64,000 nucleotides of DNA, from NCBI GenBank assembly GCA_030674185.1, contig CM060315.1:90157637-90221636 (forward strand). The letters run 5' to 3'. Source of the stretch: Monoplex corrugatus (taxonomy: Eukaryota; Mollusca; Gastropoda; Littorinimorpha; Ranellidae). The first letter of the stretch is position 1; every line of letters starts with the position of its first letter. This document shows positions 5,008 through 63,472 of the stretch, piece after piece. The notes beneath the pieces are model-generated. The model was given only the letters and a program-made list of their open reading frames with translations. It was not told the origin of the DNA and searched no databases. A program made the position numbers and the translations under genes.

Positions 5008-5017
5008 GTAGGCCTAC
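5008..5017. other. TAGGCCTA micro-insertion creating a stop in the transposon gene
   Basis: The palindrome GTAGGCCTAC sits where the family pattern expects Lys-Tyr followed by an ILDF motif. Six extra bases turn a TA into TA-GGCC-TA and add an in-frame TAG plus one alanine. Confidence 0.6.
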
Positions 5018-5235
5018 TTGAGGGGAATCACAACATAAGGACGGCCTCATCTGGCCATTCTCAAAATGTTGTCCCACCCACTCGGCGTATAGAGTGGAGT
5101 GTGCTTCTTTGCAAATGTTATCGCAACGTGCATCGAATCACATTCCATTTGTGTATGTCCAGTCTCAAGGTATTTGTGTGTGATGATCTTGATGTTGTCA
5201 ATATTGTTTACGGCGTGGATCAGGCCAGCAGCAAG

Positions 5236-5245
5236 GTAGGCCTAC
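5236..5245. other. Second TAGGCCTA micro-insertion in the transposon gene
   Basis: GTAGGCCTAC occurs directly after the QNRN motif. Without six of its bases the frame reads QNRNQYLAAGL, close to the usual pattern after QNRN in this family. The insertion adds TAG-GCC in frame. Confidence 0.65.
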
Positions 5246-6774
5246 TGATTTCTGTTCTGTCCCGAGCAGCAGTCCGAATATATTGTCACTTCGTCAACAC
5301 ACTTGGGCAGAGATGACAGGTATATATACAAGCAGGTGGCAATTTCACAGGAACCATGCTTTCCCTCCGTCTCATTCCAAGTAAAACAAGTTCCCTTTCC
5401 ATCAGCAAGAGAGTATACGGTGAAATTATAGACGAACAGTTTTCGTTTGTAGTAAAGCTGACTTACAAGGCCACATGGAGCTTGGAGAACTGCTTGTAAG
5501 TCAACAGTGACCACATGTTTTGATGGGTCATGTCTCGCGTCTTCTTTGTCCTTTGCCTTCTCCTGTCTGGCCCGTGTTTTGTGATCCATGTGTAGAGAAG
5601 CAAGACCTTGCTTTACTTTCATATGATAGGTTGTGCAAGTGGCGCACTGGTCCTTTTTCGGAACGTGGAAGGCTAAGTTGAAATATTGGTTGAATATTTG
5701 TCTGTATTTCTTGATGGACAAGCCCCGACATCCCTACTGTTTGCATTCCAGCAGATACAGTTCATACATTTTTTTCAAGGTCAGGTTAGATTGGAGATAC
5801 AAACGTTGAGTGTCTCTTTGAGTGTAATGGGACTCAACAGCTGGGAAGGAAGCAATGTGTGCTTTAGCATGATCAATCGCTTCATCACTGCTTTTATTGT
5901 GAGGGCGAGTTTTACCCCGTTTACCTGGCTCAACGAATGTTCCATTTTGGCTGTTTTTGGTGGAATGATCAACATACGTTTCTCCCACCACCAATGTTGC
6001 CAGGAAGAATTTCTTACAAACTCTCACAGCCTGTCCATCAACTTTCAAGGAGTAGGTTCGGCATGTCTGACGCCTCTTTTTGACTGGTTCTCCATTTTCA
6101 TTGAGAACAGTGATGGTATTTTTCTGTTGTACATGGGGGCACACAAAGTCTTTCTGCTGGCTGCAATTTCTCAAGGCGTAGAATGCGTCAAACAGTTGCT
6201 GTCGCTGTTCTTCGTTGATGGTGTCGCTGCATTTGTATTTGCAGGAGGAACAGTCAATAGGTTTGAGTGTCTTTGCTGGGATAATTTTTCCTGTTTGAGA
6301 CTTCTATTCTTTTCCTTGTAAGTGTAGTGACTTTCTAACGTTCTTCTTCCATTGTTCTGGTCTTGCCTCACGTTTTCTTACCAGTACCTTCTTCGGTGGT
6401 GTGTTGAATGTTCCTTGCTTTCTGGGTGTGATCTGCAGTTAATGACTGTCTGTGTCAGTGACTACTGGTTGATCAGCAGCCGACAGTTGATCTGGGGTCG
6501 TTTCATGACTGGTACGTTGAGCAGAGGAGGCTGATTGATCAGGGGTGGCTAGTTGGTCTGTGGCTGATTGATTAGGGGTGGCTGGTTGATCAGTGGTGAC
6601 TGGTTCATCATTGGTGGCTGGCTGATTACAGTCCATATAATGGGCTGCTGGTTGCTCAGACTGATTCTTGTTTGAGTTTCCAGATTTAATGCACGCATCA
6701 TAATGTTGTGGACTGCAGTCTATGAAGGCAAGAGGAATTGGTTCAGTGGCCTGTTGCGCTTCGACGTTGGTCAT

Positions 6775-8480
6775 CCCTGAGCAAATCTTCAAAATCTTGT
6801 CAGCGTTTGAAACAATTTGCAGTTGTCTGAAAGTAGACCAGTATTCTGATGGGACGGATCCTGAAGCACTCGGCCAGAGACACTCTCTGATTCGGCTAAT
6901 GGGAAATGAATGGAATGTGTCCAACTTAATAATCTGGGAAATGACAGGGTCAAAGTGCAAAGGAAGTTTGTATCAAGGTTCTGACCATCAGCCCCCCCCC
7001 CCCCCCCCCCGACTGTGCGAGTCTGGCAGTAACAAACTAATTGAGCCTGACACCTTGTTAATTGACAGCTCCCATCTGCCTGCCTGGTTAACGGGATATG
7101 ATAGGTGTTTTGATAAGAGGCAGGGTGTTTTGATAAGAAATGCTTAATAGTATTCAAAGTGCGTGAGAGTCAGTGACACTGAGAATCTGGTATCATTTAA
7201 CCTGGAGTTGAAATTACTCTATACACTTGGTCAAGATGGAGGGAGAAGGATCAGACAGCAATCAGTGTTGTGATAATGAGATTTACAAAAATTTACCAGA
7301 TGACTGATCTTATCAACTTAATAGGACAACAGAGGGCAAAGCTTGCAAGTGTGCTGACAGTCCTTACAAAGTGTCTAAAACCACAATGTGTGAGAAGTAC
7401 AGTGTGTATCCATGATGCACCAATCGCAAAGACGGTTTCAAAGCTTGCCACACACATGTGACATGAGTGACATGTAACACATTCTTATATGACATTTCAC
7501 ACAGACATGTGTGTGCTACAACTTCTACATAATTTTTTGTTGTAATATGTAGGGATCTGTAGTGACTGGGCGTTGTGACTGTTGTGAAATGTAATATCTA
7601 CAAAAGGACAGTGGTACCTCATTGTACAGTGTACAGTATGACCCATGAACACAATAAAGAACTTAACAATTTCAGACATGTAGACAGTGACAATCTTCAA
7701 TGTGTTAGCAGTCATTCCGAATTTGATGGACACAATGCTGTGAGTTAGAAACAATTGTGTTGTACTGTTTGTTGTTTGTGCCATAGCATTGACTATCAAC
7801 TAACAATAAGAAAAAGAATAAGTGTCATCAATATTGGCACCTGTGTGTCACCAAACAGACAGCAGGACATCCAAACACTATCACTAGTATCAGAGACTTT
7901 GTCATGCCACTGCTGCACCCAATTATATAGGGTTTAGTATACATATTCTACAGTTTTTCAATCTCTGACAATGATAAAACACCTACTTCACATTTCTAGC
8001 GAATTCCTCCAGAAATCCAGGAATAAAAAAAAGGAACTGCTGTTGCTATGGAATGTAGGAACGAAGGGAGAAAGTTGTCATACATAGGCAGGACTGAAAG
8101 GGTTATTCAACCGGCCTAACGACCCTGAGCCTTCACTTCACCAATCTGCCTTAAGACAGTAGCTGCCGATACAGATCTTTTAAGCAGCCGGCACGAAGGC
8201 AGTGCGTTTCAAGGACCGCTATTCAGCGTAAAAAGAGGAGCTCCCGATAGGGACTTTAGGCTGGCAGCATTGACGCATTTGGTTAATTGTAGGGCCTTCG
8301 CAATGCATGTTTCTATGCGCGTCTTGGGCAGCCCAGTTTTGATGCATTGTGAGATACTGGATTTAAGTTCTGATCAATAACTGCATCATTTTTTATTGAA
8401 CTGGAGAAAGAGTAGGTCAGGATCATTCTACACATCAGTTTCTCCAAAAATATGCAAAAAAAAGAAAAATCATGAAAATC
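6775..8480. other. Transposon interior, no gene recognised
   Basis: Contains a run of 18-19 C at 6991-7009 and AT-rich sequence. The segment 8095-8345 has a higher GC content and may be a separate small repeat, but I could not define its ends. Confidence 0.5.
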
Positions 8481-8516
8481 CGAGATACGGCCTTTACGCT
8501 GGCAACCCTCGATATG
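8481..8516 (-). repeat. Right terminal inverted repeat
   Basis: Read on the minus strand it gives GAGGGTTGCCAGCGTAAAG followed by GCCGTATCTC, the mirror of the left end. It marks the outer limit of the insertion on this side. Confidence 0.75.
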
Positions 8517-8799
8517 TTATAGCTAAATTGTACCAAAAACAAAAATGAAAAAGAAAAGAAACAGGAGACCCTTACAATCTGAACTTGGAAAAAAGGGGCA
8601 AGAAAACAACAACAACAACAAAAAACATTAGATGAGGAAAAAAGTGAAAAAGTAAAGATACTTCTTCTAATCCTTAGGAAAATGAGGTAATACAGACCTC
8701 ACAATTCTCAGGTCAGCTGTTTGAGAGTGGACCTTCCACTTCACTCTCTCTCACTATCAGTCTCACTGCTTCAGCTTCCCCAACTCTGAACAGGGTTAA

Positions 8800-9303
8800 C
8801 TCTTTGATGACGGGCTACTTCGATTGAAGTAACACTAACACCTGAGCTCTGAGGACGGGCTACTTCGATCATAGTAACAGACAGTCTAGGGTATATAACT
8901 CCCTCTACTTTTGTTATGCTAATGATTTAGTAGTTGGTAGTTGCTTCCCTTGTGGAGGAAACTTCCGTTGAACGCTTCAGCTACATTTTGCCGGCTTCTT
9001 TGTTTAAAATTGATAGAAAATAGCTCAAGGCGACAGTTTTCAGTGATTTCACTATGGCAGCCCTAGGCCAGTAGGAGAGCTCAGCTGTGGCAAGTGCAGT
9101 CACAACAGAGTTAACCCTTTGACTCCCGCACCCTATCTACCAACTGCAAAAACTTAACCCTTTGACTCCCTCACCCTTTCCACCAGCTTCCTGCAGGAAG
9201 CTGGTGGAAAGGGTGAGGGAGTCAAAGGGTTAAGTTTTTGCTTTGTTAGCTTGGCTGACGATACAGGATGCTGGTGGACAGTGTGCGGGAGCCAAAGGGT
9301 TAA
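8800..9303. mobile_element. Nested TTAA-flanked MITEs (piggyBac-like) absent from the paralogue
   Basis: The paralogue at 40796-40806 reads GGGTTAAGTAC with nothing inserted. Here the same GGGTTAA and TTAAGTAC flank about 500 bp, so TTAA is the target duplication. Inside are a first unit starting TTAACTCTTTGATGACGGG (8796) and a second unit, 9111-9303, whose ends are TTAACCCTTTGACTCCCGC and its near-complement. Within the second unit, 9154-9233 is a third insertion at another TTAA. TTAA targets and CCC-starting ends are typical of piggyBac elements. There is no coding capacity. Confidence 0.8.
9154..9233. mobile_element. 80-bp perfect palindromic TTAA element
   Basis: The 40 bases 9154-9193 are the exact reverse complement of 9194-9233. 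The ends are TTAACCCTTTGACTCCCTC and the centre is CTTCCTGCAGGAAG. It is inserted in a larger element of the same family, between AAAAAC and GTTTTTG. Related copies are at 23291-23377 (imperfect) and 55460-55500 (half, broken at the centre). Confidence 0.85.
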
Positions 9304-9477
9304 GTACCAACTCACAGCTGGGTGGAATGGAAGCCACCCGCATAAACTTTCTCCAGCCATGGTTCAACACACGGGCACTCTGCCTCTACACAAACCAGGT
9401 CTAAGAGACTTTAGAACTGAACTTGGAGTGGGGGTGGGGGGAGGATGAAAGAGACAGAAAAAGAGAGAACTGAACTT

Positions 9478-9507: not shown

Positions 9508-9546
<39 letters not shown>

Positions 9547-9958: not shown

Positions 9959-11506
9959 TCACAGTATCCTTGGTTGACATTTAACTTTGAACCAGATGGG
10001 TCGGGTCAGCAGGCTGTTGTCTCCAAACTGTGTAACATGCACATCACGGACAAATACACAGTTACCCCCAAGACGTGAGTATGCTGCTGTCTTCAGATTG
10101 GACATTTGTTCCTCCTCAGTTTCTGTGTCAGACTTGGGGAAAGTGATTGATCTCTCCAGAAATTTCAGACCACACCAGTCTCTCAAGGAGATTAGGATTT
10201 TGATGGAAGAGCTGCTGATACATCCATGAAAAAACAAAGTGTCCAGCTCTGGACACTGCTTGACTGTATCAATCAGGATGCTATCCAAGTCGGTCATGCT
10301 GTTGTTACACCAAACAAGGTTTCTGAGAGTTTTAGAGTAGTAGGCTGGCAGTAGTTTCAGCAGCTCTTTCCTAGCACTTTCATTCTCACTGTGGTGTGAA
10401 AACTCTCTTACTTCGACATAGACAACTGGGACGATGGATGGCACTGCTGCTCGAGTAGCTTCCCAGTTCACGCCACACCACACAAGAAGATACACCCTCA
10501 AGTCTGGGATGGCGTTCAGCAGCTGAGGCCACTTTGTAATGTTCTCCGGGAAGACAGTGAAACAGCCTTCAATGTCAAACCGTGCAAACTGAGTTGTCAT
10601 GGATGTGGACAGCGTCTCTAGAAGTTGATCTGTCAGATAAAAAGTATTTATGTTGAGATGTTGTAAGTTCTGGAATCTTCCAATGCATTCTACCACTTGT
10701 GGAATGGCATTGCTCAGATCAGGTGTCTCCGGACTTGTTCTCACTACTCCCAGTACTAGCTTTTTCAGACTGTCAGTAAAGGGGGCAACCTTCAATGCTT
10801 CCAAGATAACTGAACCCCCATCACAATATGCCCAACAACAAATTTGAATGACCAGTTCCTCCAGTCCATTAATTTTCTCTGAGGTCAGACAGTTCCTGAT
10901 TAAATGACTCAGCGCTGACATCCCAGGATACACAATGACAGCTGTTTCACAAAGTATGTTAAGAGATTTTAATGTGAAATTGGTTGTAGCTTTATCCAAA
11001 ACCTGGAAAGACTCGTTGTTCATGCTCAAACCCTGAAAATCGTATATGTTAAATTCCAGTTTCTGAATCTGATGGCTGTGGGACTGTAGCACGGACATTT
11101 CTGTGGAGCTCAATTTTATTTCATCAGTTCTACGCTCGTGATTGCGATTTCCCACATGGATGGCCGCGGAACGCCACAGGATGGACTCTGTCTTACAGAC
11201 ATTGTAGACAGTCCAACAGGTCACAGCTAATACTAGTCTGTCCCGTTCCTCCAAGTTGGACAAGATCATGGTCCAAACTAGTAGTGGTAACTGTGAGAAG
11301 TCAGGTTCTTGATTTTCAGTTATTGATGATTCTATAACATCATATTCATCCTGGTTTATATTTGTTGCATCATTGTGTTGCCTGCCATTTCTTTCACAAC
11401 CGTCATTGACATTTTCACCTTGCACACAACGTCTCTTTTGGAGAGTTACCATCTCTGGCACAGAGTCATTATGGCGCTTATTTCCTGAAAGTCGAGGGAG
11501 TGCCAT
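9959..11506 (-). CDS. F-box and leucine-rich-repeat protein, copy 1 (FBXO33/FBXO39-like)
   Basis: A single uninterrupted minus-strand frame. The F-box lies at about residues 73-116 counted from the ATG at 11506 (LPLLVWTMILSNLEERDRLVLAVTC...LWRS, quoted in part), with the usual LP start, RDRL and C...LW elements. In such proteins this segment binds Skp1 in an SCF ubiquitin ligase. The rest is irregular leucine-rich repeat sequence that would choose the substrate (for example LQHLNIN, LRNLVW), ending in an FVRDV...RPIWFKVKCQPRIL tail shared with copy 2. The frame opens at 11548 with GTG-ACA-CGT where copy 2 has ATG-ACA-CGT. Copy 1 has therefore lost that start, and the next ATG is at 11506. No nonsense codon or frameshift is visible. 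Assignment to FBXO33/FBXO39 is by overall feel; the F-box is secure. Confidence 0.85.
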   Translation of the reverse strand: MALPRLSGNKRHNDSVPEMVTLQKRRCVQGENVNDGCERNGRQHNDATNINQDEYDVIESSITENQEPDFSQLPLLVWTMILSNLEERDRLVLAVTCWTVYNVCKTESILWRSAAIHVGNRNHERRTDEIKLSSTEMSVLQSHSHQIQKLEFNIYDFQGLSMNNESFQVLDKATTNFTLKSLNILCETAVIVYPGMSALSHLIRNCLTSEKINGLEELVIQICCWAYCDGGSVILEALKVAPFTDSLKKLVLGVVRTSPETPDLSNAIPQVVECIGRFQNLQHLNINTFYLTDQLLETLSTSMTTQFARFDIEGCFTVFPENITKWPQLLNAIPDLRVYLLVWCGVNWEATRAAVPSIVPVVYVEVREFSHHSENESARKELLKLLPAYYSKTLRNLVWCNNSMTDLDSILIDTVKQCPELDTLFFHGCISSSSIKILISLRDWCGLKFLERSITFPKSDTETEEEQMSNLKTAAYSRLGGNCVFVRDVHVTQFGDNSLLTRPIWFKVKCQPRIL

Positions 11507-11548
11507 CTCTGCTCTCGAAACATCCAATTTTCCTGTATGACGTGTCAC

Positions 11549-14429: not shown

Positions 14430-14885
14430 ATCATCATGTAGGCCTACCATGGCCCTCCATATGAATCTATCACTTGTCACTGCAAGTACACCTTCCACCC
14501 TGTTTTGTCTTCAGCCACCCTGCAAACCCGTCCAATATTTTCTCCCTGGGTCTACCTGATGTTCTCTTTCCCTCCAACTTTCCTATTGTGAACAAGTGCT
14601 CTCATTCCCCTTTCCTCAGTATACTGAAGGTATTAATTAGTAAATAATCTATTATGAAGTGAAGGTATTAATTAGTAAATAATCTATTATCTTTTAATAA
14701 GAATGCTTTCCATTTTCTTGAATGCTGTTTTAGCTTGGATGATTTTGCTGGCTATTTCTAAAGTGCATTTGCCATCTGGTGAGATGACAGTTCCCAGATA
14801 TTTACACTTATCAACTTGAGTCTGAATGTTGTGTCATTTGCTGTTATTTTGCATTCTATAGCCCCTGCTCTCTTTACAACTTTCA
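14430..14885 (-). mobile_element. RTE-like LINE fragment, 3' portion, minus strand
   Basis: The reverse complement of 14430-14620 matches the last part of the RTE-like copies (compare 16920-17170 and 47890-48140). The segment 14700-14880 matches the reverse complement of about 47490-47700. The order and a gap between the two pieces indicate an internal deletion. The extreme end has GTAGGCCTAC (14449-14458) in place of part of the terminal sequence. It is arranged tail-out relative to the plus-strand copy at 15009. Confidence 0.7.
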
Positions 14886-18179: not shown

Positions 18180-19145
18180 TTAACTCTTTAATTCCTGAAA
18201 ACTGGTTTTCCAGTTTGCGTAGTCGGTACCCTTCATTCCTGCAGCATGGAAAACCGGTCTGAGGAAAGAAGCTCCTTTCCTTCCTGCAGCCTGGAAAACC
18301 GGGATGCGCCATGACCACTTTGAAGTTCGTGCGAATTGCTTCGTCAATGTACGTCATTTGTCCTTGATCGGATCACTTGCTGGGCACTGTTCATGAATTA
18401 AATGAGTGCCAGACTCCCCACTAATCATGGGAAAGGGGTCAGTTTCTCTCTTCAGTCAGTGTGCTGCTGTCTACGTGACAGTAGTCACTGTAAATGTGTA
18501 CTACAAAAATGGAAGATGCCAGAATTTCGACTCTGATCAATTTTCTGAAGACGATTTGTTCACTTCAAATATACGGATGAAGATTTTGATTTACTACAAT
18601 TGACCGAAGAGGAGAGAGCCGAGTTAGCGGCAGTAGTAAATCGGAAAGAAAATGATGAGAGTGGAGATGAATTAGATGATGAAAACCTGCCACTGTTTTA
18701 CACTCTGCCAAGCTTTGAATGGACAAGCGGAAATTATGTGCCACCTGACGGTAAGACAAGAACCAAGTAGGCTACCAGAGCAGACCTGGGCCTGTGCGTG
18801 TACTTGATACATCTATGATGGTGCTGGAGTATTTTCAGTTATATTATTCGGACATAATTCTGCTAAAACTTGTTCAGTTTACTAATGACAATGCCACCAA
18901 AAAAAGAAGAGAACAACTGGACAAAAACAAAGGTGAGTGGAAGAAGTTGATGCTGGATGAAGGCGAGAACCACACCTGTGTTGTGTGCACGGCGCAACAC
19001 AACAAATATAATGAGGCATACCCTGGCAACCCATTCAAAAAATGCAAGACAACAATTATGTGTGAGAAGTGTGGGGTGTATCTGTGCAGCAACCAGCACG
19101 ACTATTTCAAGGTGTACCGCACACGTGTCACCTATGTGTAACAAA
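18180..19145 (+). pseudogene. Internally deleted piggyBac-like transposase relic
   Basis: A TTAACTCTTTAATTCCTG end-like sequence lies at 18180. An acidic stretch follows (TEEERAELAAVVNRKENDES, then LPSFEWTSGNYVPP, around 18604-18755), typical of piggyBac N-termini. After several stops the frame 18794-19141 carries a Cys-rich tail: CVVC...KKC...MCEKCGVYLC...H. PiggyBac transposases end with this kind of Cys-rich finger, used in transposon end binding. The DDD catalytic core, which should occupy several hundred residues between them, is missing. The element is a non-autonomous deletion derivative. The right terminus was not found. Confidence 0.6.
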
Positions 19146-25104: not shown

Positions 25105-27660
25105 ATTATACATGATCATTACCAGTAGGCCTACCATAATCTGCAAACCTGAAGTAAATTTTACAAACACACTGATTAAAAAGATGGTATTTCATGAGAA
25201 AACTGTAACTTATTATTGCATAATGAGCTTAATGATATTGAGGAACTTATAATTTATCATAACTACCTTGAGGCTTTACTTAACAATTTTCAGAACTTGA
25301 TTGTTTTGGAAGCTGTCAGGATTTTAGGAATCTCAGTTAATTTTCATTTTAGACAATTGAGCCAATTAATAATTAACATTTTATTAATCACTCAATTACT
25401 GCAAGGCCTAGTGATTTATGAAGGTCTTAATCATCTTAGGTAAACAAGGACCTTTCTTCTACTGATTTTTTTTCAATCAGTTCAGCCATTTGAAACTTAT
25501 GGTGCTCTTTGTGAAGAAATGGCACACACACGGTCATAGTTCCTGCTATGTAATCCAATAAAGAAAGATGTAAAAATTTTAATTAGTCAAAAAATTGTAA
25601 CTTTCGTCACTCAAAGACAACCAATCTAACAACTTTTTATACCATTTTAAAGTTGTTTTTGTTGTTGTTGTTTTTCTTTTCAATTATGGTAATTACACAT
25701 TTAATAGAAATACTTGAAACATTTTGTAACATACCTAGTACGTGAAAGAGGAAGGGAGAATGAAAGTTCCGAGCAGATGGTCCAAAAACACCAACAGAAC
25801 ACTGGTCAACAGTTGATAGTTTAAATCGAGGAACCTGACGGGAAAGAGTATCATATTTAAGTAAACATAGAAACACCGCATACACATACATACACACACA
25901 ATTATACACGTGCACGGACGCACATGCACACGCATGCACGCGCACACACACACACGTTCTGGTGTAGTACGGTACTTAGAAGTACTTACACCTCTTTACC
26001 GATTTAGACAAATAAACCCTTTTAAATGAGAAACAGATTACAGGTCAAAATGCCCAAGGGCCTGTAGTGTTAGTGTTATATATATATATATACACACACA
26101 CATACATACATACATACATATATGCATATGTACACTTATAACACATATACCCACACAGATATTTACATAAATAACACATTATCTTTCATGTTGTATGACA
26201 GCTTATGAGAAAGTGTGTGTTTACGCAAGAAAAAAAATTATTACTTTTTTTTTTTAAGTTTGCTTGTTTGGGTAAATAATTGAAAAGATACACTGTCCTT
26301 ACTACCAGCAGAATTTTTAAATCAAAATTGCAAGATGAAATTTCCAGAAGAGCAAGTTATAAACCAATTCAGTCTGTGAATCTTTTTTACCCTCAGAACA
26401 GCTTAATTAGTAATTAATCTGTAATCTCTTAGTCTTTATCTAAGTCTAAGTCTAAGTCAATATCTAAGTTACTAGGAAACTTGAGAGGTCTTTTCAGTGA
26501 AATATTCAATTTTCGTTTCTGTTTTTTAAAGGTTTTTATACTACCATCACAGGCTCTCAATTTTTTTTAAATTTTAGTTAATCAACATGAATATATTTAA
26601 ATTACATACATCTATACACACATATATAATAAATATGATATATAATAATACACACAAATATTATTTATAATTAGAAACATATATATAATCCAAGAGTAAA
26701 TACTTAGGCCTAATATTATAGTAATAAAAAATAAAAATGCACAAGTTGACTTCTTGTTTAAAGGCGGTTTTTCATGAAAAACTGTAATTAATTGATTATT
26801 ACATAAAGATTGAACCTAATGGTATTGAATAACTGTTGTAATTTATCATGATAATTATCTTGAGGCTTTACTCAACAATTTTCAAGTCAGAAATTTGATG
26901 ATTTTGGAAACTAAAGATTTTACTATTTTTAGGTAATTATCAGTCACGACAGTTGATCTTCGCTTCAGCCAGTTAAGGCAATTAATTAATGCATGGACTC
27001 AGAGATTCATGAAGGTCTTAATCATCTTGGCTAAACAAAGACCTTTCTACTGATATTTGATTTTTTTTCAATCGGTTCAGTCGTTCCAAAGTTATGGTGC
27101 TTTTTGTGATGATAAACGGCACACACGCGGTCAGTTTTTGGTATGTAATCCAATGAAGGACAACGTCGAAAATTTAATTATTCAAAAAATCATAACTTTC
27201 GTCACAGATAATCAAACGAAGAACTTTTAATACCATGTTAAAGTTCTTTTTTTGCTCTTTTCAATGATGGTAATTGCATATTTAATAAAAAATATTTGAA
27301 ATTTTTTGTAACATACCTACAACTACAACAAGTTACTCAGTTACTGTGGCTAAGTTAAATTACATCGTACGTGGAATGTTTCAAAGCTACCGCTTTTCAG
27401 CAAGCTAAAATCGCAGTTCCTACACAAATTCTTGTATTTAAACAGTAGCAATCATGTAACGGAAGTCAATGAATAATATTCACTGAAAAAATGCAAACCT
27501 TGCGGTTAACAATCGCGGAATTTTCGCCGATTTGGTGTACGCCTGCTTCTCCACGACCGTTCTGTGAAACATGTGGCTTGTTTGCCCTTTGACCCGATTT
27601 CCAGACATGGGAAGTAACTCGATGATTTTTTTTTTTCTAGATAAGGGTGGTCAATGATGC
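25105..27660 (+). repeat. Segmental duplication block B1
   Basis: Collinear with 52195-54370. Landmarks are ATCTGCAAACCTGAAGTAAA, TAATGAGCTTAATGATATTG, TTTCAGCAAGCTA and GGGAAGTAACTC. A related ~570-bp copy of part of the same sequence lies within the block at 26750-27320, so the block also contains an older internal repeat. No coding sequence is supported. TAGGCCTA at 25126-25133 is absent from copy 2. Confidence 0.85.
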
Positions 27661-30686: not shown

Positions 30687-33600
30687 TCATCCGGATCGAG
30701 TTTCGTACTGCCCAGCCGAATCTCTTTCAGTATCTCTCCTTTCAGAAGACAAAGTGGGCGTTTCTGTAACTTCTTGCTGACTGGGAGATTGTAGATCTGA
30801 GGATACTCTCAATTCATCAGTGCCGCGATGTTCCAATGTGATATCTTGTTCCTCTTGTACTGGAGCTTCATTTCCTTTAGATGTAGAGGAGCGCAAGTGT
30901 TGTCTGTTCCGCCGGTACTTCTGATTTCCGGACTGGACGATGTATGACCCGAGGAGATGGGTGACGTCCCAGGACGACAGCTGGTTGCCATTTTTTAGAT
31001 CCAGGGAGTGGTGTCATACGCACATGTTCGCCAGGCAGGAATGGGATAAGACTTTTTGTGTGATGTTTGTCATGGTAATATTTCTGTTTTGCCTTTTCCA
31101 GACAAAGACACTGTTTAATGATTTCCTGACTGTATGAAGTAGGAATGAGCAAACTTCTTGAAGTTGGCAGCTTGTTTCGTGGTCGACGCCCCATTAGTAG
31201 TTGTGCTGGAGAAATGTTTATTCCTTCAAGTGGAGTTGTTCTGTAATCAAGTAGTGCAAGGTATCTGTCTGTGTTCTTTCTCCGTAGCCATTTCACCGTC
31301 TGCACAGCACGCTCAGCTTCGCCATTGCAGCTTTGAAAGTAAGGGCTTGACGTTTGATGTTTGATTCCATAATCCTTGCAGAACTTTGAGAATTGTTCAC
31401 TCGTAAATTGTGATCCACAGTCACTTCGCAGTTTCTCAGGAATACCATGGCGGCTGAATTGACTTTTCAATTTATCTATCACTTCACTGGTGCTCAAGTT
31501 CTTCAGTTCATCTACTTCTATATATCTTGAGAAATAGTCAACAACAATGAGGTAGTTTTTTCTTTCAAAGTCGAAAATATCAACTGAAATTTCAGCAAAT
31601 GGGTAGGTGGGAACTTCTGTTGGCATCAGTGGTTCTGCTGAGTTTTTTCTTTGGTATTCTGCGCACTTGACGCAATTCTTAACAGTTTCCTCTATCTCAG
31701 CACTCATTGAAGGCCAGTACATAACTTCTCTTGCTGTCTGTTTGCATTTCATGATTCCAAGATGAGATTCGTGGATGATTTTCAACATGTACTTGTGAAG
31801 ACTTGGAGGGATGACGATTCTCATTCCTTTGTAGATAACTCCATCTGAGACTGTTAGTTCTGTTTTTGAATCCCAGTAAGGTCTGAGCGAGGTTGCAAGA
31901 TCAGCACGCCTATCTGGCCATTCTTCCAGGATGACTCGCTGGAGATGATCCAGTTCTTGCTGGGTTTTCTCTTTGATTTCTTCATACTTTTCTTTAGTGA
32001 CTGAAATGAAATCAAGTGCACTGATTGTTTCTAATTGTGGAATTTCTGGTTTTCCATCAGGCAGATGTGCTCGTGACAGAGTGTCTGGAAGATTCATAGT
32101 TGTGCCCTTCCGATAATAGACATGGAGGTCATACCACTGCAAATTAAGCAACATTCTCTGCAGACGCATAGGAGCTGATAGTAAGGGCTTTTTGGAGATA
32201 GTTTCCAATGGTTTATGGTCATTGATGACTGTAACTTCTTTGCCCAGTATATAGCAGTGGAATTTTCTGCAAGCAAATACAATAGAAAGCATTTCCTTTT
32301 CTATTTGCGTATATCTCAGCTCAGTGTCCGTAAGTGACCTGGGGGCATAGAACACAGGCTTTCCGTCTTGCAAGAGAACAGCTCCTAAGCCATGTTGACT
32401 TGCGTCACACTGGATTTCAACTGGCTTATTGACATCATAGTATTTGAGGACTGGAGGACTGCTGCAAAGGTTTTTTAGTCGTTGAAAAGCTGCTTCTTGA
32501 GGTGGCTGCCAATCAAAGAGTACATCTTCTTTCATCAGTATTCTCAGTGGGCTGCTTTCCTGACTAAGGTTTGGAATAAATTTCCCAAGGTACGTGATGA
32601 AGCCAAGAAATCTTTTTAAATCTTCTTTGTTTTTCGGCATTGGCATTTTCTGAAGTGCACAGACTTTTTCAGGGTCTGGTTTCAGTCCTTCTGCTGTAAG
32701 TAGATGGCCAACATAAGGACCACTGGACTGTCTGATGTGGAGTTTCTCAGGGTTCAGTTTGAGGTTGTAGCTCGTAGCTCTCTCTGTTACTTGCTTCAGT
32801 ATTTGGTCATGATGTTCTGTATTACGACCAGCAATAATAATGTCATCCATAACTGCATATGCTCCTTTGATTCCTTCCAGCATATGGTCCATTATTCTTT
32901 GGAACACTTCAGGAGCACAAGAGACGCCAAAGGGTAATCTCAGCCATCTGAATCTACCTATAGCCTAGGTGTATTAAAAGTTGTCTGGTATGATGATTCT
33001 TCATCTAGTTTTATTTGGAGAAATCCGCTTTTTGCATCAAGTTTTGAGAATACTGTAGCATTTGGAATTTCAGCAACAATCTCTTCCACTGTGCGCATAG
33101 GATAGTGTTCTATTTCAATAGCATTGTTAAGGTCTCTTGGATCTAAACATATGCGCACCTTGCCGTTCCTGACAGACACTACTATTGAACTCACCCATTC
33201 AGTTGGTTCTTCTACCTGCTTGATATGGTCATCATTTTCCATTTCTAGCAGTTTTTCAACGATTTTCTGACGCATTGCTGCAGGCTGTCGGCGCAGGGGA
33301 TGAATGACTCCTCAGGCACCTGGCTTCAGTTTTATTGTGTACTCTCCTGGAAGAGTGCCTGTAGTATTTTTTTAAATCAGGAAACTCTGCCCATACATCA
33401 GGTTGAACATTCAGATTCATTGGTTGTTGTGAGGTTGATGAAGCTACCTCTTCACTGACAGTAGCTAGTCGTGCTATCAGACCTAGTGCTTCAGCTGTTT
33501 GACCAGAAAGAACGTTCTCTTGTTCAATATTCACAATCTCAAACTGTGTTTTTATGGTAGTGTTATTATACTTGATGCTTAAAGTGCTGGTGCCCACTGG

Positions 33601-33855: not shown

Positions 33856-34786
33856 GCTATCTTTCTTTCTCTTTCTTGCCCAATGATTTGGTTTGTGGCA
33901 GTAAGCACATGTTGTGCCAATGGCCGGGCATTTACCTCCAGTGCGTGCATGTTGTTGATCTTTTCCACAACGATTACACTTGGATTATTTGCTAGGCCTA
34001 GATTTGACCTGACTTGGTTGGCGACTGTGCCTAGGTCGACTAATTGCGTCATTACAGTGCTGACGTGATTTATCGTTCTCTTTGTTGTGCTCTGCTCTCA
34101 AAGGACTGTCCTTGTGTTTGTTTTTACCATTGGATCTAGACGTTAGCACATTGACATTCATGTCCTCATCTCTCACAATACGAATTTGCTTTTGGGATAA
34201 CTCATATTGTTGCCCGATCTCAATAGCCTTTGCCAAAGTGAGATTTTCCCCTCTGTCGAGCAGTCTTTCCTGAACTTTCGTATCACGCACACCATCAATT
34301 ATACAGTCAATCAGAATATCATCAGGTTGTGTGTACTCACAGTCCATGAGAATGAGGCGTAGATCCTTGACAAAATTGTCGAACGTCTCGTCAGACACCT
34401 GTCTTCTCTGTTTCAGCTTATGGCGAGCTATACGTTTGTTCTTTCTGCCTAATGTAGATTTCCAGCTTGTCCAATACCTTAGCTGGATATTCTTTCTCAC
34501 CTTCTTCCCAAGCTAGGGTTTTGTATACTTCTCTTCCGTGCGCACCAATCCATGTGCCAAGCCATCCTGCCTTTTCCTTGTTCGTGAGTGTAGACAACGG
34601 ACCGTCGAATACAAACTCGATGTGATTTTTGAAGCGCTGGAATTCCTGATATAGATCAGGTGCATTCCAATCGATCGATGGATGCTCAAAATTCATGGGA
34701 GACATATTTTGTCGTCGTTTAATGGTGTGTTTTAAAGAATGCCGTAATTTCTCCCTACAATACCAGGCATCCAGTGTGATCAACAT
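33816..34786 (-). pseudogene. Gag of the Ty3/gypsy element
   Basis: The frame 34786-34418 starts a capsid-like protein (YQEFQRFKNHIEFVFDGPLS, NKEKAGWLGTWIG). A frame change leads to 34500-33985 with FDNFVKDLRLILMDCEY and DCIIDGVRDTKVQERLL, conserved in gypsy Gag. After a stop at 33985 the same frame gives two Cys-rich knuckles: CNRCGKDQQHARTGGKC, then CAYCHKPNHWARKRK. The protein would package RNA in virus-like particles. It has at least one frameshift and one stop. Confidence 0.75.
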
Positions 34787-35899: not shown

Positions 35900-36225
35900 C
35901 ATGAAAACGTAACTAACCATCACATTTTCCTTGTGGCTGGGATGATCGGCATGTTCCTTTAGTTTTTTCTTCCCACTCGTGCCGTAGGCTAGGCTACTTG
36001 ATTTGCTTAGAGCAAACTGTGCAGAAACATGTTCCTGGTAAGTCAAGTTTCCGACACCACTCTCCATACTCTTTGTCCTGCTCGTCTTTCTGCTTCAGCC
36101 ACTCCCACCTCCACTTGTTTTTCACCCCTTCCTCCACCTTCGCAAGACGCGAAAAATCTGCTTCCGTGAGATAATGCATACTCAAACGTCGAACGAAAAG
36201 TCGCCTGCTAATTCCGGTCACGTGC
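35900..36225 (-). pseudogene. First exon of a BED-like zinc-finger protein, frame-disrupted
   Basis: From a plausible ATG near 36181 the minus frame reads MHYLTEADFSRLAKVEEG, NKWRWEWLKQKDEQ and GEWCRKLDLPGTCFCTVCSK. It then stops at TAG inside TAGCCTAGCCTA (35985-35996). Beyond the insertion another frame continues GTSGKKKLKEHADHPSHKEN, completing a C-x2-C...H-x4-H finger. In related proteins the second cysteine pair is soon followed by Y-G-x-x-G-K, so ten bases appear to have been added. A GT dinucleotide right after the finger (GTGATG/GTTAGT) could be a splice donor. It is either a host gene exon or a transposon-borne gene. Confidence 0.5.
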
Positions 36226-36959: not shown

Positions 36960-37140
36960 ATAGTAATGATGATAATGATAATAATGATGACTATAATTTT
37001 CCATTGCTTTTATTCTTTCTCCCCATTTATAGCCGTGTGCGTGTGTGTGCGTGCGTGCGTGTGTGTCTGTTTTAGCGCTTAGATTTGATTTTATCAAGAT
37101 TTTGCGCTATATAAAATATTGTAGGCCTATATTATTATAT
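36960..37140 (+). mobile_element. L2-like LINE 3' tail, plus strand
   Basis: Has CTTTCTCCCCATTTATAGCC, a GT-rich stretch, AGCGCTTAGATTTGATTTTA and GATTTTGCGCTATATAAAAT, then an ATT-rich tail. A TAGGCCTA at 37122-37129 interrupts the ATATTGTAATTATTA consensus seen in the other copies. Confidence 0.7.
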
Positions 37141-38031
37141 ATTATATTATGTTATATATGATGACGACGCCTTGGTTAATATGTCTGAAACTGAAATGTT
37201 ATTTTCGGTCTTATTGTTATTATGAAATCAGAACCCCATTTTGTTTGAGCTAAATGCTTTTAAAGACATAAAATTGTCAAAATGTCAAGTTATCAACTCT
37301 CTCTGTCTCTCATATGCACACACACAGTGACACACACACACGCACAGACACTCTGTGTGTGTGTGTTTTTCTCTCAAGCACAAACACACACACACACACA
37401 TTGGCACACATACTACACATACACTCATCCACATCTATGACGTGATGAGTGACTGTGTGTATGTTTGTCTGTGTGTGTGTGCACGCGCGCATGTGTGTGC
37501 GTACGTGTGTGTGTGTGTGTTTGTAAATTTTGAGCCATTGTTGTTTTAGCAGAGTATTCCTTAAATTTACGCCTGTAGGCTATTTCAGTTCTTACTTGAA
37601 ATCAGAAACAAAAAGTGAATGAAACTTGACTGTGTGGTCTGTTGTCCCAAACAGCTCATAGCATGCGGAACACGTCATTGTAACCAGTTGGGACTGGAAA
37701 ATCCAACACTGCTTTTGAGAGGAAAACTGAGAGGATTCAAACCCATGACCTCTCTGTTCTTAGTCCATTATACTGGTCACTTGGCCACGATGACTGGTTT
37801 ATTATTCATACTTTCTCACACACTTAACGATGACAATTGTAGACTTTGTGACAACACTGTATATGTCTCCATCACAAAATGATGATAATTCTAGTTTTCG
37901 TGACAATGCCGACCGTTTCATACTGTGCTGGTGCAAGGGAAACAACTCAGCTTAAGTGACAAACTATTCTTCCGTGGGCTGTTTCCACTTGTCCAGCCAG
38001 TGCATCTTGAGCACAGCAGTTTTAAATGGCG

Positions 38032-46650: not shown

Positions 46651-48100
46651 ATGAAAGATGAAGTTAGCGCAGCACTGAAAAAGATGAAACCAGGAAAAGC
46701 CCCAGACAATATTACTACAAAGATGATTGAAGCACTGGAGGAATTTGGTATTGAAAAAATATCAGACCTCCTAAATGGGATATATGATACTGGAAAAATC
46801 TCCAAAGACATGCCAAAATCAATTTTCATTGCACTCCCGAAGAAAACAGGGACTATAGAATGCCAACTCCATCGCACAATCAGCTTGACGAGTCATGTAA
46901 TAAAGATCCTATTAAGAATAATCATGATGAGGACAAGGAATAGAATCAAAAGTGAAACAGTGTGGATTTGTAGAAGGGAAAGGAACTATTAATGCCATAT
47001 AGGCCTACATCCTAAGAACTATCATAGAGAGGTCAATCGAGATGAATAAGGATTTACATTTATGCTTCATTGATTATACCAAGGCTTTTGATCGGGTAAG
47101 ACACAAAGAACTGATCAACCAACTAGAAAGACTCAGTATTGATGGAAAAGATCTACAATTAATCAGAAATATGTATTGGGAACAAACAACTGCAATGAGA
47201 GTAGAAAACGATATAAGCTCTTCCAATATATCAAAAGAGGAGTCAGAAAAGGATGTTTTGTCACCAGATCTGTTTTCACTTTACAGTGAAAACATGAGAA
47301 ACCTGGAGGAATACCCTGGATTAAAGATTGGAGGAAAAATGATAAACAATATTCAATACTTAGTGACACCGTGCTAGTTACAGAAAATGAAAGGGACCTA
47401 CAAAACCTTGTGAATATACTAGAAATAGAAAGCAAAGGTAAGGGGTTAGAGCTAAACAACAAGAACTTTTAGAAGACTGAAGTCATGGTAATCAGTAAAA
47501 AACATGAAATCCCCTCATGCAAAATAACAGCAAATGACACAATCTTGAGACAGATTGATAAGTTTGAATATCTGGGAACAATCATTTCACCAGACGGCAG
47601 ATGCACATCAGAAATAGCCAGCAGAATCGGCAAAGCCAAAACAGCATTCAAGAAGATGAAAAAGCATTCTTGCCAACAAATGCCTATCAATTAACATCAG
47701 GAAGAGAGGTGTTGAATGTTATATAGAACTGATAATGTTATAAGGTTGTGAGGCATGGACAGTCAACAAGCAAAGGCAGAACAAGATTGAGGCAGCTGAG
47801 ATGTGGTTTCTACGAAGAGTGTTGAGAGTTCCATAGACAGCAAAGAAAACAAACTAGACAATCTTGATGGAGGCAGACACAAGAAGATCATTCATAAGGA
47901 AGATAAGGAAAAGACAGGCAACATTTATAGACCATTTTATGAGGAAAGGGGAATTGGAGCATCTGATCACAACGAGAAAGCTGGAGGGAAAGAGAGCACC
48001 AGATAGACCCAGGGAAAAAATATTGAACGGACTTGCAGAGTGGCTGAGGACAAAGATGGTGGAAGATGTGCTTGCGGCAACAAGGGACAGATGCATATGA
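46651..48100 (+). pseudogene. Reverse transcriptase and C-terminus of RTE-like LINE copy B
   Basis: Blocks in order: LKKMKPGKAP (with the following Gly-Leu deleted), LHRTISLTSHVIKILL, then a 13-base deletion against copy A before QCGFV. A TAGGCCTA insertion at 47000-47007 adds a stop. LCFIDYTKAFDRVRH gives the first catalytic Asp (47042-47377). The YADD box near 47360 is destroyed by a small deletion. Downstream are ISPDGRCTSEIASRIGKAKT (47584-47643) and [20 protein letters not shown] (47905-47970). It is multiply disrupted. Confidence 0.75.
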
Positions 48101-48149
48101 AGGGCCATGATCGCCAGCACCATGTGGCAAGGCACTTGATGATGATGCT

Positions 48150-49220
48150 GATGATATAGGCCAAAAACGCACATTCACCTTTTCACATACACTGTTTACT
48201 ATTTAGCAGAAAACGTACATTCATCTTTTTACATACACTAACTGACTAAGCTAATAATAATAAAAGTCATTACTGATGCTTAGTCACTGCATGAGCTGGC
48301 CTTGTTCACAGCAATTGAAAATGGGCAGATTTTGCCTGTTTAGTTTCTGCCATCCACACGGTCCCACCCCCCTCCTCTTAGGGGGAAGCCACAGCCGCAG
48401 CCCTTTCCCTCTATTTCCCCTATGTAAAAAGTGTTGTCAGTGACTGTGTTTCCCACCTAATTTTATTTACATCAGACGTATTTCAGACCCAATTGTTGCC
48501 TCTTTAATCCAGTGTCTTTGCTGATTACATCCATATTACAATAGTCTAGATCCAGGCAATCCATTCAAGCAACAATGTGTTTCAAGGAAAAAAATGGCGG
48601 GGGTCCAGGGGCAGAGCCCCTGGTGGGTGTCTGGTGGCGTTTCCCCCAGAAGCTGAAGCATTTTAGTCTAGTAAATGGAAATTCAACCCCCTCTGGTGAA
48701 AGATAAATCAAGTATTTCAATAAAAGAAAAAAAGGGCACAAGCATTCTTAACAATGAACAAAACATGCAAATACTCCCCTTTCACGGATTCGGACATTTG
48801 GATTGCCTGAGATCCCACTTCATACTGTGCTGTAAAAATAAAATAAAAAGAAAATAAAAACCACCACTTAATTTATTGGCACTGACTGAGTGTGTGCTGT
48901 TGCTAGCAGCCATCTGGCACTCTGCACATTGATATGGATAACTGAAAGAATGTGAATAGGCCTACAGACCACGCTTGACCCAGCTCACATGCAGTCCGTG
49001 ACAGTAAATAAAGTGGTCTTGTTATTTTCTTTGTTCTTCCTTTTGCATTTATCATCTGCTTTCTGTGATTGTTCAGCAACTTATTTTTCTCATCACTGTG
49101 CTTTCTGGCCCCAGTCTGAGTGTATGTTTAGTTTGGCTTTCTTTGCTTCTTCTTGTGCGGAGAAAAAACAAACAACAACAAACATACAAGGCTTAAGCTG
49201 GTTGGTGTTTTACTACATGA
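48150..49220. other. No intact gene; dispersed CAGGGGCAGAGCCC repeat at 48580-48680
   Basis: The repeat GGGGGTCCAGGGGCAGAGCC matches 35175-35290. A short plus frame from 48989 has a hydrophobic start that mimics a signal peptide, but it has no recognisable continuation. Confidence 0.4.
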
Positions 49221-55152: not shown

Positions 55153-55416
55153 CACACACATACACATACACACACACACACACACCTTCCAGTTTTCGTA
55201 ATGACCATCTCATTGCCGAACCTTTTCCACAAGACTGATGCATTCAGCTTGCGTTTTGACCCTATGCTCCACAGAACTGGTACTGGTACCGTCGGGAGTA
55301 CCCATCCCCTTCCATGGAGCAAACGTTTGGCTTCTGGACCTGCCAGGTGGAGTGACGAACTGAACTGCTGGCTTTGGCTCACTGAAGCACAAATAGTGGT
55401 GGAGGTAGGCCTACCA

Positions 55417-55500
55417 TTAATCCTTTGACTCCCGCATCCGATCCACCAACTGCAAAAACTTAACCCTTTGACTCTCTCACCCTTTCCACCAGCTTCCTGC
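55417..55500. mobile_element. Broken TTAA MITE ending at its palindrome centre
   Basis: Begins TTAATCCTTTGACTCCCGC, continues to the inner TTAACCCTTTGACTCTCTC and stops at CAGCTTCCTGC, which is the exact midpoint of the 80-bp palindrome at 9154-9233. The rest of the element is missing. TAGGCCTA lies just upstream at 55406-55413. Confidence 0.7.
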
Positions 55501-57570
55501 TTGTATGAGACCATAAACTGAAGTCCTTGTGGCAGCGCGCATCCGATGCACATCAATAAATAAATAAATAGATAAGTAAGTACGAATAGTTGTCCGTAGC
55601 AAATGTTTGAAGAAAAATCCACTTTCGTAGGTAAACACGAAAACGTGCTTACAGAACAAATGGGTGGCGCTGCACAGCGGCGACGCGTTCTTCCCGAGGA
55701 CAGCAGCCCGAATTTTGTATGGTAAACCCACTGTGACCAAAAAAGCAAAAACAGAAACAAAACAAACAAAACCATTAACAAAGAGAAAAGAAAAGGAAAG
55801 AAAAAAAAAGAGAAAGAAAGAAAATGTAGCCGTGCACACCCAACGGCGTGTAGCAGACGTCTTTTCTTCTCAAACGATTTTGAGTAGGCCCTACAGTTAA
55901 CTCCCTTGGTTCAGCGATTCTCAAAAATATTAGGAAATTCTATTATTTAAACCCTTAAAAGTTAAGAAATTAATAACTTGTGCACTCTAATTCAGCAGAA
56001 GAGTATGTATTTCTTGTAGGAAATGTCCTCGAGGCGAAGTTTCCCCTCGTTTGCCTGAAATCAATAATTTTTGTTGTCCGATCTTTCGGTACTATTCAAA
56101 TTTCCTACTAGTGAGCCGTGATGATGATCGGAAATTTGTATAATAATGAAATAAATTGTGGAAATTTTAAGATCGCGATTAGAATGTTGGTATTCTAATC
56201 TTTCATTTGGACCACATCACACCTTTAATCATTAGATATTAAGCTTGCATTAAAGAAAGTTCAGGCCAAGTCAAAGTGTGACAAACCGCCAAAATGACCG
56301 CCATCTTGCCGGGATGTAGAATCGAATTCTTAATATTTAAAATCGGACTTAGAATACATAGAATCTAATTACATTTACCTTTTTGCTCCTTTTATAAACA
56401 GAAATGATATTGCAATGAACTATTGCTAAGCAGTAAAGTATTAGAAGAGATCTTGGCATTCCGTATTGTGGTCGAACTATGCGTGTCCAAATTAGGATCA
56501 TTGTGTTTTTCTATTGCCTGTTCACCGATCTATTTCTGCACTGAGAGATTGATTTACCTATTCAAAGTATGTCCACATAAACTTATCGATCATCGTGTAT
56601 TCACTCATTTGTTTGATATTTTTCATAGACTAATATTGATTGATTAAATACGTAAAAATACGGCTAAAATCCCTTTCAGCAGAGTGTAAACATTGACTTA
56701 AATCACTTAGATCTATAGTTTCGATCTGTGTGAATGTTGTGCACAATGATGTAGAATACAACAATCTGTATGCTGTGTAGAATTTTCTGATATATGATAT
56801 GTTGGTATTTGTTATGTGGACTGCAAGATAAGCACAGCTAAGCTTGCTCGAAGAAACACAAATCTGGCCCCTAAGGGTTTCCAGAGAGTCGTTTTGCCTG
56901 CGGGCTCGCGGTGCGGTCAATGCGGTTCACATGCGGAGTATAAACGGATGAGTGCGAGTGCCATGTATACAAAACAAGAACAAGTGCCATGTATGCCTTT
57001 CTCCTCTGGTCTGGTCTTGAACGTTTGGGTCAGAATAAAGAGAGAAACACCATCTCTGTCTTCCCTGGGTCTTCTTCGTCAGGCTGCATTACCATCTGCG
57101 CTCCTCTGCTCTTCTGCCTCCTGTCTTCACCTTCACCCTTACCACCACACCATCACAAAAAGAAAAAGAAAGAAAAAAAGAAACAATTTCAAATACTCCT
57201 CTCCTTTTCCTCATATTTTCTTCATCTCTCTTTCCTTCACCTTATCTCCTTCTTCTCCTCTCTTTCTCCTTCCCCTTTTCTTCTTCTCCCCAAGTTCTTC
57301 CCCTCTCTTTCTCTTCGTGTCTCTCCTTTTCCTCTCTTTTTTCCTCATGTTCTTCTCCTACATTCCTTCTACACCTACTCTCTTTCTCGTCCTCTCTGTC
57401 TCTGTCCTCTTCCTCAACTCCGTCTCCTCCTCCTCTGTCTCCGTCTTCTCCTTACCTCTGTCCTTCTCCTACTCTCTGTCTCTCTTCTTGTCTTCCTCTT
57501 CTTCTCCATGTTCAAGGACTAGCTGTACGATACGTCCACTGGGACCTGATGCTACTATCTTTGAGTAATA
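55501..57570. other. No supported gene; pyrimidine-rich tract at 57090-57520
   Basis: Long open frames on either strand (for example 55781 to 55020 and 56816-57568) lack conserved motifs and run through CT-rich or GT-rich DNA. 57090-57520 is strongly biased to C and T on this strand. Confidence 0.6.
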
Positions 57571-59472: not shown

Positions 59473-59514
59473 CCTCCTTCGGTCATGACTGACCATGGAC
59501 AAAGTACATCCGTT

Positions 59515-61968: not shown

Positions 61969-62034
61969 TTATAATAATAATAATAACAACAAGAAGAATG
62001 ATAAGAGTAATAATAATAATAATAATATTATCAT

Positions 62035-62350
62035 CATCATCAGATGCCCTACTGCATGGCGTTGGCGATCATGGACTTCCATCTGTCTCTATCTCTCATT
62101 GCCCCTAGCATCTCCCCCACCCTCCTCGTCCCCAGCCACTCTGCAAGTCCGTCCAGCATTTTCTCCCTGGGTCTACCCGGTGCTCTCCTTCCCTCCAGCT
62201 TTCCCGTTGTGACCAGGTGCTCCAAATCCCCCTTCCTCATAAAATGGCCTATAAATGTTGCCTGTCTTTTCCTAATCTTCCTTATGAGTGATCTACTTGT
62301 GTCTGCCTCCATCAAGACTGTCTCGTTTGTTTTCTTTGCTGTCCATAATA
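62035..62350 (-). mobile_element. Solo 3' end of the RTE-like LINE, minus strand
   Basis: The minus frame 62315-62049 has [20 protein letters not shown], then [33 protein letters not shown] and MIANAMQ, and ends at the (CATCAT)n tail. It is the best preserved version of this C-terminus. Its tail side is joined to the truncated end of the next LINE. Confidence 0.8.
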
Positions 62351-62464
62351 ATACTAATAATGATAAATGAAAAAAGGTAAAGGAATGAACAAGACGATTA
62401 GAGGGTTGATGAAGAGGTATGCGGTGGACAGAATGTAATTTGTTGTGGTAGTGGTGTGCTTTTT

Positions 62465-62635
62465 ATGTATGTATGTGTGTATGAATGTATGTATGTATGT
62501 ATATATGTATGTATGTAAGCCTATGTATGTATGCATGTACGTATGTTTTTATGTGTATGTATGTATGTGTGTATGTATGCATGTATGTATGTATGTATGT
62601 CTGAGTATGTATGTATGTATGTAGCCTATGTATGC
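62465..62635. repeat. (GTAT)n microsatellite with TAGCC-type interruptions
   Basis: The tetranucleotide phase is kept on both sides of TAAGCCTA (62516-62523) and TAGCCTA (62622-62628), as if GCC or AGCC plus a TA had been added to the array. Confidence 0.85.
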
Positions 62636-63044
62636 ATGCATTTCTTTTCTTTATTTTATTGGGGTTGGAGAATGGACTATAGCAGCCGTGATGACGGAGA
62701 TGATAAATCGTGTTGGTGAGCTGATGTAGGCTTTGTGTAGAATGTTGGAGATGTGGTTGTGTGGGGCGTTGGTGTGGTCTGTTCGCACTAAGGGATTGTA
62801 CGTGTTTTTAACTGTTTTCACTGTTTTGATGGCCGGTAGACTGGCTGGAAAAGTTGGGTTGTGTTTTCATCCGTTTCCATGTGTGTGTGTGTGTGCATGC
62901 ATATGTGTACAAATGTGTGTGTATGTATGCATGTATGTGTACGTGTGTGTGTGTATGTGTGTGCATGAATATGCGTATGTATTTGTAGGCATGCATGTGT
63001 GTGTGTGTGTGTGTTTGCGAGAAAGAGGAAAGAAACCCTTTCCA
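62636..63044. other. No gene recognised; GT-rich at 62880-63015
   Basis: The open frame 62733-63062 is mainly GT repeat translation and has no conserved motif. Confidence 0.6.
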
Positions 63045-63472
63045 AACCATTTTAAATTTTAAGCCATTGTTAATTTAGCAGAATATTCTTTAAATTCATG
63101 CCTGCATTTCAGTTCAAACTTTCTCCCACACATCATGATGATAATTCTAGTCTTCGTGACAACGCCATAATTTTCTCCCACACATAATGATGGTAGGCCT
63201 AATTCTAGCCTTCGTGACAACGCCGACAGTTTCGTTCTGTGCTGGTGTAAGGGAAACAACTCAGCTTAAATGACAAACTATTCTTGCGTGGGTTGTTCCC
63301 CTTCGTCCAGCAAGTACATCTTGAACACTGCAGTTTTAAATAATGCAGGGTGTGTGCGTGTGTGCGTGCGTATGTTTGTGTGAGTGAGAGTGAGAGAGAG
63401 AGAGAGTTTCTCAGTGACTGTGTCTGTATGAATTCATGTGCGTTTCTGTGTGTGTACCTCTGTATCTGTGTT

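Follow-up and report, generated by a model that had tools for sequence, protein, structure and literature searches.

The DNA analysed here, a window of 64,000 nucleotides from the gastropod Monoplex corrugatus (assembly GCA_030674185.1, contig CM060315.1, C11:90157637-90221636), belongs to a genome of 3.018 Gb in 7,621 contigs and contains copies of a long interspersed nuclear element (LINE), other dispersed repeats and a minus-strand frame described as DUF7869-like in a first, sequence-only reading. Three related words occur 18 times in the window, namely TAGGCCTA (11), TAGGCTA (4) and TAGCCTA (3), two of the occurrences overlapping at 35985/35990. The sequence-only reading regarded these words as micro-insertions of GGCC, GGC or GCC at TA that duplicate the TA and resemble the footprints of a Tc1/mariner-type transposon. 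All the motif coordinates it quoted are correct except 62516-62523, which reads TAAGCCTA. The sites are listed below, with strand unassigned throughout; empty copies are repeat copies that lack the added bases.

1605..1613, TAGGGCCTA, a longer variant absent from the list of the sequence-only reading; 7-bp gap against the copy at 38918, two other copies aligning differently
3127..3133, TAGCCTA scar (5 bp); exact 5-bp gap against the copy at 39974
5009..5016, TAGGCCTA scar in the minus-strand DUF7869-like frame; in-frame stop (*AY), open on both sides, no partner copy
5237..5244, TAGGCCTA scar; its TAG terminates the minus-strand open reading frame (ORF) 5242-5721
14439..14446, TAGGCCTA at a deletion junction of a short interspersed nuclear element (SINE); about 27 bp of other SINE copies replaced (by eye), not a clean insertion
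18768..18774, TAGGCTA; motif only, no empty copy found
25126..25133, TAGGCCTA scar; 6-bp gap against the copy at 52203, where a T stands in place of the C that follows the scar
26705..26712, TAGGCCTA; motif only, no empty copy found
32961..32967, TAGCCTA; motif only, no empty copy found
33993..34000, TAGGCCTA; motif only, no empty copy found
35985..35996, TAGGCTAGGCTA, possibly two events in succession; motif only
37122..37129, TAGGCCTA scar within the A/T-rich tail of a repeat; two copies (window 28077 and L006) show gaps of 7 bp, two others aligning differently
37576..37582, TAGGCTA scar (5 bp); by eye against 63101, with one further base difference, elsewhere only a partial match
47000..47007, TAGGCCTA scar in the LINE frame, reading GTINAI*AYILRT (asterisk, stop); exact 6-bp gap against L027, L013:6465 and L008, 39 more copies
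48957..48964, TAGGCCTA; motif only, no empty copy found
55406..55413, TAGGCCTA a few bases beyond a repeat boundary; no empty copy
62516..62523, TAAGCCTA, in the GTAT array that also contains 62622; probably a scar that has mutated
62622..62628, TAGCCTA scar in the GTAT array; recognized by array phase, by eye
63194..63201, TAGGCCTA scar; exact 6-bp gap against the copy at 37805

The insertions lie exactly at TA and the TA is duplicated, as had been claimed. Within the window, clean empty copies are available for 47000 and 63194 (6 bp) and for 3127 (5 bp), while at 25126 and 37122 the gap is accompanied by a nearby difference. The unmodified copy proposed for 25126 near 52217 does show the 6-bp gap, but with the adjacent T/C difference; the comparison of 37122 with other LINE tails holds against two copies, but the gap is 7 bp and two copies align otherwise. 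Similarly, 37576 fits an insertion of five bases relative to 63101 except for the extra base difference, and of the two scars proposed in the GTAT array the one at 62622 indeed breaks the array (by eye), whereas the word at 62516 is probably a mutated scar. Further sites come from elsewhere in the genome: L008:1501 is a clean 6-bp insertion relative to L027, two L013 copies and one window copy (two other comparisons are less clean), TAGGCTA at L013:7325 is a clean 5-bp insertion relative to an empty copy, and L001:1765 carries a 5-bp insertion relative to L071 (by eye). In the sequence compared, no copy aligned across 26705, 33993, 48957, 55406, 18768, 35985/35990 or 32961.

The filled state is the derived one, because scars place TAG stops in coding frames. 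In the minus-strand frame 4501-5721, which is long and mostly open, both motifs read TAG GCC TAC in frame; there is one other stop between the two scars, and more stops follow toward the end of the stretch. The ORF 5242-5721 matched none of the Pfam families (0). At both LINE sites the scar again supplies a TAG stop, breaking the frame in the window copy at 47000 and giving DRWGE*AYIKDL in L008. The stops in open frames and the exact gaps in empty copies uphold the view that the motif is derived and not ancestral.

The words are in excess, although to different degrees at different scales. The 11 occurrences of TAGGCCTA in the window compare with 0.35 expected from dinucleotides and 0.24 from trinucleotides, and 300 dinucleotide shuffles of the window yielded a mean of 0.36 and a maximum of 3. 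The same number of shuffles yielded means of 1.83 for TAGGCTA (4 observed) and 1.82 for TAGCCTA (3 observed), each with a maximum of 7; in the window alone the 8-mer is significant and the two 7-mers are not. The window, which drew attention through the motif itself, has 172 TAGGCCTA per Mb and is richer than a random 200-kb sample drawn from 20 contigs (about 153 kb once 47 kb of N are discounted), which has 39 per Mb, with 6 occurrences against 0.52 expected; TAGGCTA (5 against 2.6) and TAGCCTA (2 against 2.5) show little excess there. Counted across the genome with the reversed pattern of each word as control, all three words exceed their controls, in agreement with the predicted genome-wide excess: 64,628 against 4,160 for TAGGCCTA, 57,287 against 27,517 for TAGGCTA (2.1x) and 57,058 against 27,648 for TAGCCTA (2.1x), corresponding to surpluses of about 60,000, 30,000 and 29,000. 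Some share of the TAGGCCTA count is due to a 37-bp satellite (C1:494400-500000; L068 and L069) that carries the 8-mer in most units read, alongside mutated forms like TAAGCCTA. As a source of the motif this satellite was rejected, as it inflates the genome count and cannot explain the dispersed sites. Two further arrays were noted, a 27-bp minisatellite (C1:361300-362500; L070), in which 4 of 31 scored units, not necessarily independent of each other, have TA replaced by TAGGCCTA at GTAC and one has GGTG, and a TAGG-rich tandem array at L013:2000-4080 with copies about 46 bp apart, which probably inflates the count of TACCCTA. The same words are probably common in fish and sea-urchin sequence.

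The products of the process were surveyed at one TA of the LINE (GGAGAGTACATTAAAG), using a genome-wide pattern of left flank, two to eight free bases and TA plus right flank. This pattern matched 77 insertions (0 and 1 with control patterns), the main inserts being GGCC (25), GGC (15), CATG (11) and GCC (8), followed by AGCC, CGG and GGGCC (2 each) and by single cases of CG, GGTC, GGCCC, GTC, GGCCCC, CAGAGAG, CAG, CA, ATCC, CATTG, CGACC and CATAAAC. Fourteen of the 77 (CATG 11, CATTG, CAGAGAG and CA) are explicable as tandem duplications of the flank and were set apart; the 11 CATG inserts could have arisen by tandem duplication of the six bases GTACAT or be Tc1-like scars of the form TACATGTA, two origins that are inseparable here. 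The remaining 63 comprise 52 pure scars consisting of a G-run and a C-run, four mutated-looking ones (near-variants of the scar: AGCC 2, GGTC 1, GTC 1) and seven others. Tandem duplication or slippage does not account for GGC(C), letters of this kind not adjoining the TA. With 7,497 exact empty copies in the genome, about 0.7% of the copies are scarred at this site. GC, GG or CC alone is found in none of the 77 inserts. At a non-TA dinucleotide of the same LINE there is a single insertion of the same size class, where 13 to 49 matches would be expected at an equal rate, given the less conserved flank of that site (exact in 4 of 20 random empty copies and 18 of 39 young copies; the flank of the TA site is exact in 20 of 20, owing to selection, and in 23 of 39).

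Many separate events underlie these scars. The 52 pure scars are spread over 27 of the contigs C1-C35 and three small contigs, among them probable local duplicates (two on C2, two on C24 and a group of four within 33 kb of C3). For a tree, 20 of the 77 scarred copies, all of the G/C-run kind, were fetched together with 20 empty copies spread along C1 from the 7,497; L008 and L027 were added, and one scarred copy, whose match was short, was left out of the count. The resulting tree of 20 scarred and 21 empty copies requires 13 changes of state (bootstrap 12-14), of which the starred branches alone force three, and shuffled labels give a mean of 14.0, with 183 of 500 shuffles as low as 13. Because scarred and empty copies intermingle, the scars arose many times. 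An earlier tree of 19 scarred and 25 empty copies had looked clustered, with six changes against a shuffled mean of 14.7 (0 of 500 as low; a single clade rejected, p 0.003), but was judged to be confounded because its empty copies were mainly young ones, and the analysis was redone with those spread along C1. The second LINE site, that of 47000, is filled in 11 of 45 copies with four kinds of insert and requires nine changes (8-11; shuffled mean 10.0, 126 of 500 as low) in a set of copies biased toward filled ones. At both sites the events were thus repeated and independent and their product variable. A hotspot at the site of 47000 was also considered, 9 of the 39 best matches being filled, but the query itself was filled; an empty query returned one filled copy in 39, L111, which is the same place as L033, and the hotspot was dropped because a filled query favours filled copies.

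The target is more specific than TA. Among 25 TAGGCCTA sites (11 from the window, 8 from motif-search loci and 6 from the sample), 33 of 50 half-sites have G next to the TA, compared with 21% at all TAs, a preference for G-TA-C; nothing clear emerges beyond this first flanking base.

Taken with moderate confidence, the motifs are probably germline repair scars of a Tc1/mariner-type, TA-targeting transposon with ends 5'-GGC...GCC-3', as the sequence-only reading had proposed. An element of this cut-and-paste type would insert with duplication of TA and later leave. Because its transposase would cut three bases in from each 5' end, both flanks would keep the 3' overhang TA-GGC; pairing of the terminal GC of the two overhangs and end joining would give GGCC, and alignment of all three bases with resolution of the central mismatch would give GGC or GCC. 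Two-base pairing would yield TAGGCCTA because each overhang finishes in GC, which is self-complementary, and a GGC overhang would account for the three products, for their symmetry across the genome and for the lack of shorter products. Two inverted ends would predict a symmetric set of GGC and GCC, for which the balance is 15 to 8 at the LINE TA and 57,287 to 57,058 in the genome. Sleeping Beauty and mariner are described as nicking 3 nt inside the element, leaving 3-nt 3' overhangs and producing footprints through end joining (PMC7827188), and the Sleeping Beauty footprints TACAGTA and TACTGTA correspond to five added bases (PMC4378557). Insertion at TA, polarity, recurrence, excess and product spectrum all agree with a footprint, which is the best fit to the spectrum and not a proof; that a transposase made the breaks, which overhang it left and that the element existed at all we infer from this fit.

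The element itself was not found, and several observations weigh against the footprint. Among TA-flanked inverted arms of 16 bases with 13 or more matches and a spacing of 60-5000 bp, sought in the 241 kb of sequence that could be read (a tiny fraction of the 3 Gb), none started with GGC; the earlier remark that no element with GGC/GCC ends is visible extends to this sequence. One arm began with GGGT, within a MITE-like repeat (MITE, miniature inverted-repeat transposable element). A search for shared downstream sequence outside tandem arrays gave four GGC-started pairs and no element boundary: one is the end of a LINE lying behind a TAG-repeat tail, one the scar of L001/L071; in the third the match continues across the TA, and the fourth is an indel that separates two paralogues. 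With 52 scars at the LINE TA, some resident copies should be found there too, yet none was seen when 20 bases past TAGG were read from one 15-base left flank, T being excluded in the last place, which hides most GGCC scars: the 23 matches (5 and 3 with controls) consisted of 17 scars and six unrelated-looking sequences, which begin with letters other than GGC. An ordinary transposon family usually has more insertions than scars. Here scars number in the tens of thousands and no source is visible, which is unlike such a family. In addition, the six-base form dominates here as compared with five in Sleeping Beauty, the G-TA-C preference differs from the AT-repeat preference reported for ZB, T is changed to C just after the scar in two filled sites (25126 and, by eye, L076), and GGCCTA is not among the 40 commonest indels when gaps are tallied all against all over the first 288 kb. 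The lack of GGC residents counts for less than it might seem to, because a classical CAG-type resident, the positive control, was also unseen at the LINE TA (42 matches, of which most carry a T to G change). Transposases of the superfamily are present in the genome, with at least 150 scored places for PF13358 (DDE_3, Tc1-type) that are stop-free and above the cut-off, out of 6,441 first-look candidates; their tie to the scars is putative. Copies of these DDE_3 families occur in runs with identical scores and have open frames of about 387, 404 and 424 codons; at least some of the families are probably young, because so many scores are identical.

A possible but doubtful alternative is a distinct germline process that inserts a fixed, very short GGC(C) at TA, with G-TA-C as its best target and no resident transposon, and that would be responsible for most of the short insertions other than tandem duplications at the one LINE TA surveyed; it could take the form of a transposase-like nuclease with templated repair or of an element excised nearly every time. 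We think it unlikely that the insertions were made directly, by a polymerase adding fixed GG or GGC to the 3' ends of a staggered break at TA, preferably G-TA-C, before these were joined. The missing residents, at the LINE TA and in the 241 kb, would follow naturally, and the high frequency at a single TA, the palindromic product, the occasional T to C change beside a scar and the one scar at a deletion junction, the last two suggestive of break repair, all suit such an origin, but the added sequence is fixed and not random: if one or two G joined each side independently, about 4.8 GC-only scars would be expected among the 77 inserts, where 0 were seen (Poisson p 0.008). We know of no polymerase that adds a fixed GGC. 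The templated polymerase insertion offered as an alternative by the sequence-only reading is a lesser possibility.

A further candidate is the footprint of a non-mariner DNA transposon with GG or GGC ends and a two-base TA target, for example from a lineage related to PIF/Harbinger; superfamilies of this kind often have ends starting with GG. Such an origin is improbable, in that the three-base TWA duplication is not seen, the LINE site being flanked as G-TA and TA-C, and only 1 of the 11 window sites is TTAGGCCTAA. Very improbable, too, is a developmental or near-complete excision of TA-bounded elements in the manner of ciliates, with joining that leaves GGC(C); it would explain many scars without residents, but scar-like words mutate and multiply in the satellite and the minisatellite like ordinary inherited DNA, and for this reason the scars are not made anew in each body. 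Hardly credible, and already contradicted by the evidence, is a compositional accident, satellite content or the wide copying of one scarred LINE ancestor, for although the 37-bp satellite carries TAGGCCTA, a filled query over-represents filled copies and some of the scars that lie close together on C2, C3 and C24 probably arose by local duplication, the excess is dispersed in unrelated sequence, the pure scars vary in their letters, lie on 27 of C1-C35 and intermingle with empty copies, and a scarred LINE is a poor master because the scar adds a TAG to its frame.

Excision footprints as such are already known. The scars of a Tc1/mariner-type element proposed here share with those of Sleeping Beauty the TA duplication and, putatively, the three bases taken from one end or the other of the element, which bring the addition to five bases (PMC4378557, PMC7827188); they differ in their letters (GGC/GCC), in the predominance of the six-base GGCC and in that no resident element was found. 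Somatic scars of Tc1 in C. elegans likewise are short insertions after excision with one typical form (+4, 78%, cited in PMC13148408), whereas those described here are +5 or +6, inherited through the germline and very numerous. Footprints of Stowaway-like MITEs consist of a small duplication and a short stretch taken from the end of the element (PMC4561436), but no MITE whose ends match was found here. The internal eliminated sequences of Paramecium are bounded by TA. They are also elements removed from DNA (PMC3464196), but their removal occurs during formation of the somatic nucleus, while the scars here carry GGC(C) and are inherited. A limited look at open-access titles and the beginnings of abstracts revealed no mention of a numerous, genome-wide class of footprints without its element; TAGGCCTA as a whole word is absent from the open-access literature searched, and for longer forms of the motif no title on such insertions appeared among the matches listed.

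The window contains further repeats and genes. A SINE-like dispersed repeat is found at 14448-14595, 16994-17136, 47964-48109 and 62070-62215 and at several sample loci, and a MITE-like dispersed repeat with inverted TTAACCCTTTGACTCC arms at 55414-55504, 9111-9305 and 23221-23377. Two similar minus-strand ORFs lie at 9959-11548 and 41415-43028, the second with an F-box domain; a protein search gave only two weak database relatives of the F-box ORF. The LINE ORF had no match in a phage collection.

If the scars are footprints, the genome records the past traffic of a transposon in an excess on the order of 100,000 scars, satellite copies included, while the traveller itself is hardly visible, and the repeat families, with their thousands of identical TA sites, would lend themselves readily to assaying how germline ends are joined. 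Otherwise an insertion process not yet known would operate in an animal germline. On either reading the scars can break frames through their TAG stops and are easily scored in relatives.

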